A program made the position numbers and the translations under genes. From assembly GCF_003544915.1 (NCBI RefSeq), contig NZ_CP032097.1, forward strand, positions 868,001-932,000: a stretch of 64,000 nt of DNA. The letters are read 5' to 3'. Each line of letters begins with the position of its first letter. Positions within the stretch are counted from its first letter, which is position 1. Shown here in pieces: positions 51,660-56,616 of the stretch. The stretch is from Arcobacter ellisii (GTDB lineage Bacteria > Campylobacterota > Campylobacteria > Campylobacterales > Arcobacteraceae). The notes under the pieces are model-generated. The model worked only from the letters and a program-made list of their open reading frames with translations. It ran no database searches and had not been told where the DNA came from.

Positions 51660-52718
51660 TTAATCTCCTTTTATAACTCTGTTTTGTGGAAAAATATATT
51701 TAAAAACAGTGTTGTTTTTTTCTGAACTTAGTTCTATTTTTATCTCATTTTTGTCACAAATCTCTTTTACAATACTAAGTCCTAATCCTAAACCAATATT
51801 TTTATCTTTTTGTTGATAGTAGGCTTGAAAAACGGCTTTTGTATCAGTTATTCCTATTCCTTCATCTTTTATAAAAAGGATATAGTTTTCATCTTCTTTA
51901 TCCAAAGTTATCTCTATAGTTGAGTTTTCAAAAGAGTATTTTATAGCATTTGAGATTGTATTATCTACAACTCTTTCAAGTTCATTACTATCCATAAAAA
52001 CTTCAAACTCTTCATTTATATCTAAAGTTATATCAATATTTTTTATATTCGCCATCTCATCAAAAAAAGCAACTCTTGAGGATAAAAACCTCACTAAATT
52101 TATACTTTTTTCTTCAGTTATTCTTTTCTCTTTTTTGATTAGATAATATAAATCATTGTAGATTGAGGATAGAGATTTTGAAGAGGCTTTTATAGCTTCA
52201 AATTGTTCTTTATATCCTAAAGTTGATTCTAAATTATCGATATTTAAACTAATAATACTAAGTGGAGTGTTCATTTCGTGTATTATTTTTTTTAGGAAAA
52301 AATCTTGAAGTTCAAGTAGTTTTGATATTGTATTTTTGCTTTCAAAAATTTTTAGTTGGGTTTTAACCCTTGCGATTACTTCCTCTTTTTCAAAGGGTTT
52401 AGTTATATAATCAACTCCCCCTTCATTTAGAGCCTTTACCTTACTTTGTGTGTCATCTAAAGCACTTATAAAAATAATTGGAATATCTTTTAAAGTTTCA
52501 TCTTTTTTTAATATTTTACAAACTTCAAAACCACTCATATTTGGCATTTTAATATCTAAAAGTATCAAATCAGGTGGATTTAGTTTTGAAGAGTTTATGG
52601 CAAAACTTGCATCAGTTGTTGCTCTTATTAAAAAATTTTCCTCTTTTAAAATATTGCTTAAGTAGTGCAAATTTTCACTTTTATCATCTATTATAAGTAT
52701 TGTATAGTTTTTATCCAT
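51660..52718 (-). CDS. Receiver-histidine kinase hybrid
   Basis: 352 residues, cytoplasmic. N-terminal receiver with Asp55 (LILLDIKMPNMSG), then the phospho-acceptor helix with His147 (IIHEMNTPLSI), and an ATPase domain with N-box NAIKYS, G1 DEGIGI, and G2 GLGLGLSIVKE. It is upstream of the OmpR regulator and divergent from a second membrane hybrid kinase, with 5' ends 65 bases apart. Confidence 0.9.
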   Translation of the reverse strand: MDKNYTILIIDDKSENLHYLSNILKEENFLIRATTDASFAINSSKLNPPDLILLDIKMPNMSGFEVCKILKKDETLKDIPIIFISALDDTQSKVKALNEGGVDYITKPFEKEEVIARVKTQLKIFESKNTISKLLELQDFFLKKIIHEMNTPLSIISLNIDNLESTLGYKEQFEAIKASSKSLSSIYNDLYYLIKKEKRITEEKSINLVRFLSSRVAFFDEMANIKNIDITLDINEEFEVFMDSNELERVVDNTISNAIKYSFENSTIEITLDKEDENYILFIKDEGIGITDTKAVFQAYYQQKDKNIGLGLGLSIVKEICDKNEIKIELSSEKNNTVFKYIFPQNRVIKGD

Positions 52719-52783
52719 TTAGTTATTCTTTTTACAAATTCATATTTGTTAAGATTATAGGAAAAAACTCTTTAGGATTTTGT

Positions 52784-55060
52784 TTGAAATTAAAAAAACT
52801 TTTTATGTTGCTGTTTATTTTAAATACACTTTCGTTTATAAGTGTTGCAGTTGTGATAAATAAATATCAAAAATCAACTATAAATCTTGAAGATGCCTAT
52901 AATATGCAATACAAATCCTTGATTTTAGCAGATGAGTTAAGACAAAGTAGTGATGATTTGACAAGAATGGCACGAACTTATGTAATAACTGGAAATCCTA
53001 TGTTTGAAGAGCAATATAAAACAGTTTTAGCTATAAGAAATGGAGAGTTACCAAGACCTAAAAGATATAATGGAATTTTTTGGGATTTTTTAACTTTACA
53101 AGGAAATAAACCAAAATTAGATGGAGAAAAAATACCTCTTAGAGATTTGATGAGAAATGCAAATTTCCCAGATTCAGAGTTAAATATGCTTTTTACTTCC
53201 CAAAATGAATCTGATGATTTAACAAAACTTGAACATAAAGCAATGAATGCAATAAAGGGTAAATTTTTAGATAAAGATGGAAATTACACTATAAAAGGTG
53301 AACCAGATTTTGCCCTTGCTAGAGAATTGATGCATTCAAAAGAGTATCACGAAGCAAAAATTAGGATTATGGAACCTTTAGATAGATTTTACAGAGCTTT
53401 TGAAAATAGAACAAAACAAAAAGTTGATGAAGCAAGAGCAACAGTAAAAGAGTTGGAGTTTTATGTAAATGTTATAGTTTTATTTTCAATAATTTTCTTT
53501 TTGATGTCATTTTTTATTATTTTATTTAGAATTGTTTATCCAATTGATTTATTAAGACGAGTGATGTTAAAACTTTCACAAAATGATATGAGTGTAGAAA
53601 TTGATAAAAATAAGTTTGATGATGAAGTAGGGGATATGATAGGAGCAGTTGAGATTTTTAAAGAAAATACTCAAAAACTTCTTACTAGTGAACATCAAAT
53701 AAAACAAGCTATGCAAGAAGCAACAACAGCAAATAAGGCAAAATCAATCTTTCTTGCACGTATGAGTCATGAACTACGAACTCCTTTAAATGCCATATTA
53801 GGGTTTTCAAATATTTTAAAAAAATCAATGAATGCAACGATTAGTGAAAAAGAGAACTTAAACATCATAAAAAGAAGTGCTGACCATCTTTTAAATATCA
53901 TAAATGAGATTTTAGAATTATCAAAAATAGAAGCAGGAAAGATGGAGTTGAGTCTTAAAAATTTTAATTTATTTGAATTAATTAAAGAGATAGAAGATAT
54001 TTTTGCTTTTAGATGTGAAAATAAAGGCTTAAAATTTAAAATAGAGACTTTAAATCTTCCAAAATATATAAAAGCTGATGAACAAAGATTAAGACAAATT
54101 TTGATTAATCTTTTAGGAAATTCCTTAAAGTTTACAAATGAAGGTGAAATTTCACTGTATATTTATGAATTAAATAAAAAACTATTTTTTGAAGTAAAAG
54201 ATAGTGGAATTGGAATAGATAAGTTTAATATTGAAAAAGTTTTTAAACCCTTTGAACAAGTAAAACAAGATAATTATACACAACAAGGTACGGGACTAGG
54301 GTTATCTATTACAAAAGAGTTGATTTCTTTGATGGGTGGAAATATCTATTTAAAAAGTCAAGTTGGAGTTGGAAGTGAGTTTTATTTTAGTATCAATTAT
54401 GAAAAAGCAAATGAAGAAGAACTTTCAAAAGAGAATAATACAAAAAACATAGTTGGAATTAAAAATGAAAATTTCACTAAAACTATTTTAGTAGTAGATG
54501 ATATAAAAGAAAATAGAGATTTGATAACTTTACTTTTAAACTCTTATGGTTTTAAAACTTTACAAGCAACAAGTGGAAAAGAAGCTTTAGATGTCTTTGA
54601 AAATGAAAAACTTGATTTGATTTTTATGGATATTTTGATGGAAGGAATGGATGGTTTAGAAACTATGCAAAATATAAGAGCTTCAAAAAGTGGTAAAGAT
54701 ATTCCAATTATTGCACTTTCTGCAAATGTTTTTGAAGAGGATAAAATGGAAGCTTTAAAAAATGGAGCAAATGATTTTTTAGCAAAACCAGTGGAAGAAA
54801 AAGAGATTTTATTGATTTTAGAAAAATATTTACATATAGAATTAGAGTATGAAAATAAAGAAAAAAGTATAGATTTTAAAAAAGAGTTAGAGATTTTACC
54901 AAAAGAGTTCGTAGAAAAATTAAAACAAAAAGCGCTTCTTATGGATAATGATGGAATTTTTGAACTACTAAAAGAGTACGATTTATCAAGTGATTTAAAA
55001 ATTTATATCAAAAGTTTAGTTGATGAATTTAAGTATCAAGAGTTGGTAAATTTAGTTTAA
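52784..55060 (+). CDS. Membrane hybrid sensor histidine kinase
   Basis: 758 residues from a TTG at 52784 with AGGA 6 bases upstream; an earlier in-frame ATG at 52700 lies within the opposite gene's start and adds residues with no conserved pattern. TM1 at about 4-25, a periplasmic helical domain (QSSDDLTRMARTYVITGNPMFEEQY then RPKRYNGIFWDF), TM2 around 220, HAMP, HisKA (ARMSHELRTPLNAILGF), ATPase (DSGIGID, GTGLGLSITKEL), and C-terminal receiver (LIFMDILMEGMDG). Its C-terminal tail beyond the receiver is short and helical. Confidence 0.9.
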   Translation: MKLKKLFMLLFILNTLSFISVAVVINKYQKSTINLEDAYNMQYKSLILADELRQSSDDLTRMARTYVITGNPMFEEQYKTVLAIRNGELPRPKRYNGIFWDFLTLQGNKPKLDGEKIPLRDLMRNANFPDSELNMLFTSQNESDDLTKLEHKAMNAIKGKFLDKDGNYTIKGEPDFALARELMHSKEYHEAKIRIMEPLDRFYRAFENRTKQKVDEARATVKELEFYVNVIVLFSIIFFLMSFFIILFRIVYPIDLLRRVMLKLSQNDMSVEIDKNKFDDEVGDMIGAVEIFKENTQKLLTSEHQIKQAMQEATTANKAKSIFLARMSHELRTPLNAILGFSNILKKSMNATISEKENLNIIKRSADHLLNIINEILELSKIEAGKMELSLKNFNLFELIKEIEDIFAFRCENKGLKFKIETLNLPKYIKADEQRLRQILINLLGNSLKFTNEGEISLYIYELNKKLFFEVKDSGIGIDKFNIEKVFKPFEQVKQDNYTQQGTGLGLSITKELISLMGGNIYLKSQVGVGSEFYFSINYEKANEEELSKENNTKNIVGIKNENFTKTILVVDDIKENRDLITLLLNSYGFKTLQATSGKEALDVFENEKLDLIFMDILMEGMDGLETMQNIRASKSGKDIPIIALSANVFEEDKMEALKNGANDFLAKPVEEKEILLILEKYLHIELEYENKEKSIDFKKELEILPKEFVEKLKQKALLMDNDGIFELLKEYDLSSDLKIYIKSLVDEFKYQELVNLV

Positions 55061-55115
55061 TTTCCTTTTTTTATCTTTTTGTTACAATACACAAAAATAC
55101 AAAAGGTTATTTAAA

Positions 55116-55514
55116 ATGGAAATAGAGATTTCAACACCTGCTTTATTATTCCCAGCTATTTCATTACTTCTTTTAGCATATACAAATAGATTTTTAACAA
55201 CAGGACAACTAATACGTTCAATCTCTCATCAAGCAAGAGAACATGGTGGACAAGAATTATCAGGACAAATTGAAAATCTTAAAAAAAGACTTGAACTTAC
55301 AAAATGGATGCAATTTTTTGGAGTAGTATCGATGCTTATGTGTACAATCTCGATGTTTGCACTATTTTTAGGCTTTCATAATTTTGGGAAATAAATATTT
55401 GGATTGAGTTTAGTAACTATGTGTTTGTCTTTGTTTATCTCTTTATGGGAAGTTTATATCTCTTCAAATGCATTGAATTTAGAGTTAAAAGATTTACATG
55501 AGAAGTGTAAATAA
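55116..55514 (+). pseudogene. DUF2721 membrane protein gene with in-frame TAA
   Basis: The frame opens at 55116 (MEIEISTPALLFPAISLLLLAY). The first stop, TAA at 55392-55394, comes after 92 residues (ending HNFGK). The same frame then reads IFGLSLVTMCLSLFIS, SLWEVYISSNALNLELKDL and stops at 55512-55514. That continuation matches the final membrane helix and the SLWEVYISSNALxLEL end of DUF2721 proteins, which are ~130 residues. A terminator starts right at the second stop. The whole gene would be 132 codons with one nonsense codon; the first 92 codons may still be expressed. Confidence 0.75.
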
Positions 55515-55536
55515 ACTAAAAATTTTTAGTTTATTT
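55509..55536. terminator. Bidirectional terminator
   Basis: A 28-base perfect palindrome with 14-bp arms, spanning the end of the DUF2721 frame and the stop of the Nudix gene. Confidence 0.7.
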
Positions 55537-55951
55537 ATAAATTCTCTTTTTTTAAAAAATCCAAAATAATTTGTTTATGGTCAAAAACCAATTTTTCAAG
55601 GGGTATTTCATCTTTTTTATAAACATAAACCTCTTTTGCATCATCTTGTGCAATAGGTTTTCCATAAGCTTTACAAATATAAACGATAGATGCTGTATGA
55701 AATCTTTCATCTCTTGCGGGGTCTGAATAAACACCAAGAAGTGATTGGATTGTTACATCTAAAGAAGTTTCTTCTTTCATCTCTCGAACAACTGCATTTT
55801 CAACAGTTTCACCAATATCCACAAATCCCCCAGGAATTGCAACACCCAAAGGTCTATTTAATCGTTCGATTAAAACAATTCCTTGGAAATTTTCATTTTC
55901 ATCATAAAGTTTTATTATTCCATCAACAGCTAGAAATGGTGTTTTTATCAT
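55535..55951 (-). CDS. Nudix hydrolase
   Basis: 138 residues from the ATG at 55951, which has AAGGAAAA at a proper distance; an ATG eight codons upstream (55975) overlaps ccdB and has no ribosome site. The Nudix box is GGFVDIGETVENAVVREMKEE (Gx5Ex7REUxEE). It likely hydrolyses a nucleoside diphosphate derivative such as ADP-ribose; the SDPARDERFHT loop fits the ADP-ribose pyrophosphatase-like group. Follows ccdB closely, on the same strand. Confidence 0.88.
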   Translation of the reverse strand: MIKTPFLAVDGIIKLYDENENFQGIVLIERLNRPLGVAIPGGFVDIGETVENAVVREMKEETSLDVTIQSLLGVYSDPARDERFHTASIVYICKAYGKPIAQDDAKEVYVYKKDEIPLEKLVFDHKQIILDFLKKENL

Positions 55952-55964
55952 TTGTTTTCCTTTT

Positions 55965-56270
55965 TTAAAATCCATAAATTAAAAAATCAATAGAGTTTTT
56001 TATCTCTTCTTTTTGATTTGTCAAAGTAGTAATTTTTGTTTTTAATTCATTTTTATGAACAGCACCCATTTGAGAAGTTGTAAGATAAACTTTTTGATTT
56101 TCTATGATAAATTCTTTTGTTAAACCTTTAAAATCATTTTTATCTTTTACAAGAGGTATCACAACTCTTGTGTTTATAGAGTCTAAAATATCATTTTGAA
56201 TATCTAAAAGATATGGCACTTTTTGATTTGTTTGGTCATTTTCATTTTTATAAACATCAAATTGTGCCAT
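55965..56270 (-). CDS. ccdB: CcdB-family toxin
   Basis: 101 residues, the CcdB length. MAQFDVYKN at the start and YLLDIQNDILDSINTRVVIPLV are family blocks, and the end IKNSIDFLIYGF matches the conserved C-terminus that contacts gyrase in F-plasmid CcdB. The ATG overlaps the ccdA stop (TAATG). Action on DNA gyrase is inferred from the family. Confidence 0.88.
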   Translation of the reverse strand: MAQFDVYKNENDQTNQKVPYLLDIQNDILDSINTRVVIPLVKDKNDFKGLTKEFIIENQKVYLTTSQMGAVHKNELKTKITTLTNQKEEIKNSIDFLIYGF

Positions 56271-56512
56271 TAAAACATCCTACTATGTTTTAGGATTAGT
56301 CCATCTTCATCAACCATTTTGTTATAAGAGTTTATTGCTTCTTTATTTTCCTCTTCCCATTGCTTTTTTTTATCATCTTTTGAAGAGATATTTAAGTAGT
56401 TTGTTAAAGCTTCTCTTATGATTTGAGTTTTCTTTTTCCCATTTTTTAGGGCAAATTCATCAAGATTTGTGAGAATCTCATCTTCTAAAGTTATAGTCAT
56501 TTTTCTAGTCAT
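56270..56512 (-). CDS. ccdA: CcdA-family antitoxin
   Basis: 80 residues from the ATG at 56512, with AAGGAG 5 bases upstream; a longer in-frame start at 56539 lacks a ribosome site. N-terminal ribbon-helix-helix (MTITLEDEILTNLDEFALKNGKKK) for autoregulation, C-terminal WEEENKEAINSYNKMVDEDGL for CcdB neutralisation. First of the ccdA-ccdB pair, whose one-base overlap suggests strict coupling. Confidence 0.88.
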   Translation of the reverse strand: MTRKMTITLEDEILTNLDEFALKNGKKKTQIIREALTNYLNISSKDDKKKQWEEENKEAINSYNKMVDEDGLILKHSRMF

Positions 56513-56616
56513 AATAACTCCTTTGCCATATTTTACCATACTTTTTTAAATAATATCAAAAAGTTTAAAATTGAATTTTGTATAATTGGGCTTAAAATTT
56601 TAAAAGGAAAAAAATT

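Follow-up and report, generated by a model that had tools for sequence, protein, structure and literature searches.

In the DNA of Arcobacter ellisii, the gene for a small DUF2721 protein has very probably been disrupted at codon 93 by a recent nonsense mutation of an ordinary kind; its product most likely does not work, and the loss is probably tolerated. The gene lies in the window, a stretch of 64,000 nucleotides (contig NZ_CP032097.1, positions 868,001 to 932,000), and all positions below are those of the window unless a contig is named. An in-frame stop interrupts the gene, relatives do not have this stop, the neighboring genes are conserved and the gene shows no other decay. We propose that a gene encoding a three-helix inner-membrane protein gained the mutation in this strain or species, and that ribosomes would halt at codon 93 to give a 92-residue protein without helix 3 and the C-terminus. 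The loss is probably tolerated, as the gene appears to be non-essential in the genus. Of the three options raised in the initial annotation, our analysis favors a nonsense mutation, leaves a small probability for a sequencing error and gave no support for programmed readthrough.

Structure of the interrupted gene

The reading frame, as read from the sequence, begins with an ATG at 55116, meets an in-frame TAA at 55392-55394 and continues unshifted to a second TAA at 55512-55514. Of the 129 positions in the DUF2721 model (PF11026), residues 1-92 match 2-86 (Pfam E 4.8e-27) and the 39 codons downstream of the stop match 101-128 (E 2.1e-5). Since both parts match this model, the locus is a single interrupted gene and a chance juxtaposition is out. 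The N-terminal part alone scores 94.8 bits, which is above the Pfam gathering score of 28.3 bits for this family. A six-frame search with the whole locus gave 127.6 bits with one TAA inside, and an intact orthologue scores 129.2 bits. The intact relatives cover model positions 2-128 at E values of about 1e-37; at the locus in the window genome the complete domain does not lie in one open frame, the TAA falling between model positions 86 and 101. The coordinates, the Pfam matches and the alignment with relatives thus bear out the initial annotation, which held that a TAA splits a DUF2721 gene without a frame shift.

Table 1. Features of the DUF2721 locus and its surroundings (window positions).
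Feature	Position	Strand	Remarks
Hybrid histidine kinase gene, upstream neighbor	52700..55060	+	True start possibly further in
Promoter-like and ribosome-binding region (putative)	55079..55115	+	TTTTTGTTACAAT, then AAAAGG ahead of the ATG
5' part of the disrupted DUF2721 gene, helices 1 and 2	55116..55394	+	92 codons and the premature TAA
Premature in-frame TAA, codon 93	55392..55394	+	Sense codon in each relative compared
3' part of the disrupted DUF2721 gene, helix 3	55395..55514	+	39 codons and the original TAA
A+T-rich palindrome between convergent genes	55506..55539	both strands fold	Overlaps the original stop codon
NUDIX gene, downstream, convergent	55535..55975	-	Downstream of the orthologue in six close relatives too

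The segment ahead of the gene is a candidate promoter-like and ribosome-binding region by its sequence. A TTACAAT and an AAGG-type motif, at roughly equal distance from the ATG, are common to the window and the loci L002-L006, and positions 55056-55115 are identical to those of the closest relative, L005, except for one base. At the other end of the gene, the initial annotation had placed a 14-bp terminator at the second stop. A hairpin is present there, but it is a palindrome of 15 pairs, nearly pure A+T, and is not listed by a terminator scan. The RNA of 55506-55539 folds at -12.3 kcal/mol on the plus strand and -9.7 kcal/mol on the minus strand (z -6.7 and -5.6, respectively), and the palindrome has neither a G+C stem nor a separate U-tail. 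It is plausible that it acts as a two-way terminator. The NUDIX gene beyond it is adjoined by a chromosomal CcdA/CcdB-type toxin-antitoxin pair at 55965-56539 on the minus strand (Pfam CcdB E 1.6e-27, CcdA E 1.2e-8).

No solved structure was found for the DUF2721 family, and the consequence of the stop was considered on a predicted one. The AlphaFold2 model of an intact relative (mean pLDDT 77, pTM 0.62) has helices at residues 6-43, 49-84 and 91-131, and the hydropathy of the protein peaks near residues 4-22, 67-85 and 97-115. In this predicted three-helix membrane protein, the stop at codon 93 takes away the whole third helix and the C-terminus, where many of the invariant residues sit. The 92-residue product is therefore most likely non-functional, as judged from the predicted loss of helix 3. 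The match to model positions 101-128 and the predicted helix at 91-131 agree with the initial annotation that the frame after the TAA encodes the last helix and C-terminus of the family.

The stop codon among relatives and its age

A DUF2721 gene of the window type is found in seven of the 31 genomes of the genus: it is intact in six and carries the stop in the window genome. The six intact orthologues are each encoded in one frame of 132-133 residues, and the window frame is 94% identical to the intact protein of its nearest relative across all 132 residues. A search of the species collection returned 27 named loci; with three on contigs of the genus genomes and L057 set aside, 23 additional and more distant loci remained from other Arcobacteraceae and Sulfurospirillum. 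All 23 have a sense codon at the aligned position (CAA, CAG, AAA, AAG or GAT), and the closest relative, L005, has GCG. Altogether, 29 of 29 relatives (six from the genus and the 23 loci) have a sense codon here and the window genome alone has a stop. The position tolerates Q, K, A or D, yet is never a stop in the relatives. Since the relatives carry varied codons, with GCG in the nearest, the ancestor of the TAA need not have been CAA; the C-to-T change from CAA suggested in the initial annotation is one possible origin and not the sole one, with CAA, CAG, AAA, AAG, GCG and GAT all present in relatives. An alignment with the DUF2721 proteins of close strains, also suggested there, showed full-length proteins in all relatives compared and a 92-residue form without homology to the downstream segment in none.

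The surroundings of the gene are conserved as well. A NUDIX gene lies downstream of the orthologue in six of six close relatives, and a histidine kinase gene lies directly upstream in L002, L004, L005 and L006, in both cases as in the window. These conserved neighbors indicate that the relatives carry this same gene at the corresponding position. The possibility that the region holds two genuine genes was rejected, as it is one frame in all relatives.

The changes private to the window suggest when the stop arose. Compared with the six orthologues, the window gene has ten private codon changes, all of them synonymous (10 per 248 synonymous possibilities over the whole gene); apart from the stop, no private change alters the protein. 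Past the stop, the remaining 39 codons hold one private synonymous change and no non-synonymous one. This segment offers 255 possible non-synonymous single-base changes, and at the private synonymous rate about ten would be expected had it evolved without selection along the entire branch, by a rough arithmetic that ignores mutation bias. Since none was observed where about ten were expected, any relaxation of selection would have been recent and the stop late. By this pattern of substitutions, the premature stop is judged to be young. The orthologues are intact at the site and beyond it in six of six genus genomes and at the 23 loci, as in a young nonsense pseudogene.

Alternative explanations for the stop

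It is unlikely that the TAA is a sequencing or assembly error and that the organism really has a sense codon and a normal full-length protein. The stop is the sole private difference in the gene that changes an amino acid, the promoter-like region and the downstream codons are intact, and the comparison used one genome per species, so that the base in the window rests on a single genome; these points speak for an error. On the other hand, the genome is one closed-looking contig with a completeness of 100, and the site lies outside any long homopolymer or repeat. In polished assemblies, substitution errors are less frequent than indels, which also counts against an error. Nor are broken genes in general excess. 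We surveyed 400 kb of the window genome against a close relative and assessed about 248 orthologues. Most of the apparent internal stops were artefacts from start calls placed too early near the N-terminus or from shadow frames, and one of two apparent frame splits was rejected as a start-call artefact. The clear breaks left were the DUF2721 nonsense codon and one frameshift, while the reverse comparison, of the close relative with the window genome, gave no clear break. At one per few hundred genes, an occasional broken gene is normal. The frameshift lies outside the window, in a gene for a LysR-type regulator, by its sequence (L094, G000:C1 at about 977,050), and is an apparent one near residue 203 of 284 relative to the close relative G014.

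Readthrough at the TAA, whether programmed or leaky, by which the stop would lower expression and some full-length protein would still be made, is very improbable. In its favor, the frame stays open past the stop and the codons there have not decayed at the amino-acid level; readthrough would leave the sequence after the stop fully constrained, as a very young mutation also would. However, the stop is absent from every relative, so this is no conserved site of recoding. Its context, TAAA, is the commonest four-letter termination signal, at 92 of the 269 open reading frames with matches in the neighbor genome. Downstream of the stop, the RNA is no more stably folded than shuffled sequences (z 0.45), giving no sign of a stimulatory structure. 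We give slightly less credence still to a recently fixed regulatory stop at which low-level readthrough would tune down the DUF2721 protein in this lineage. The least credible explanation is a split gene, in which re-initiation would yield helix 3 as a small protein of its own and the parts would assemble. Possible in-frame starts do follow shortly after the stop (TTG at 55404 and ATG at 55419), but no good ribosome-binding site is visible ahead of either, no relative has a split form, and in the structural model such a start would remove the first residues of helix 3.

Three further candidates were tried and rejected. Code reassignment is at odds with TAA terminating 190 of the 269 open reading frames, and the second stop of the gene itself is also TAA, which likewise shows that this codon is not reassigned. 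No suppressor tRNA with a TTA, CTA or TCA anticodon was present among the at least 59 tRNAs found, a first look having scored 150 of 369 candidates, and suppression by a tRNA that reads stops was rejected. Switching by repeats was rejected as there are none around the stop. Among the tRNA genes, an Asp-Val-Glu-Lys array is present twice in tandem at G000:C1:664900-665715 (L142).

Probable dispensability of the gene and comparison with known systems

The window-type gene is missing from 24 of the 31 genus genomes. The window genome also has a second DUF2721 gene, intact and very divergent, at G000:C1:1815605-1815997 (L155). Since the window type is absent from 24 genomes and this second gene is kept, loss of the window gene should be tolerable. 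BLASTP gave no alignment between the second protein and that of the window; with such a difference, the second protein may have another role. Presumably nothing replaces the lost protein. A DUF2721 copy not of the window type is kept in most genus genomes, compared with seven of 31 for the window type. The patchy presence in the genus, together with one freshly broken copy, suggests that this membrane protein is dispensable in some conditions, which is a small clue about a family without known function. For annotation, the 92-residue open reading frame should be entered as a broken DUF2721 gene instead of a novel short protein.

The two parts of the window gene match consecutive regions of the DUF2721 model (PF11026) as other members of the family do, but its frame is interrupted between positions 86 and 101. 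In Shewanella oneidensis, the missense variants V106I, V106F and S52I of the DUF2721 protein SO_1320, described as of unknown function, led to formate tolerance (PMC12093963). In the portion of that paper available to us, SO_1320 is annotated to the same Pfam family and is, like the window protein, a predicted three-helix membrane protein; the likeness is one of annotation and not of alignment, and the variants described there are missense with no truncation reported, whereas the window gene is truncated. In-frame stops common to at least two bacterial species are often found in genes with dN/dS <1, for which readthrough was proposed (Belinky et al. 2021, PMC7918605). The window gene resembles these in keeping its frame past the stop, but theirs occur in at least two species and this one in a single genome. 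With young bacterial pseudogenes known from one genome, it has in common a single private stop, no other decay and intact orthologues, and it does not differ from them beyond the usual.
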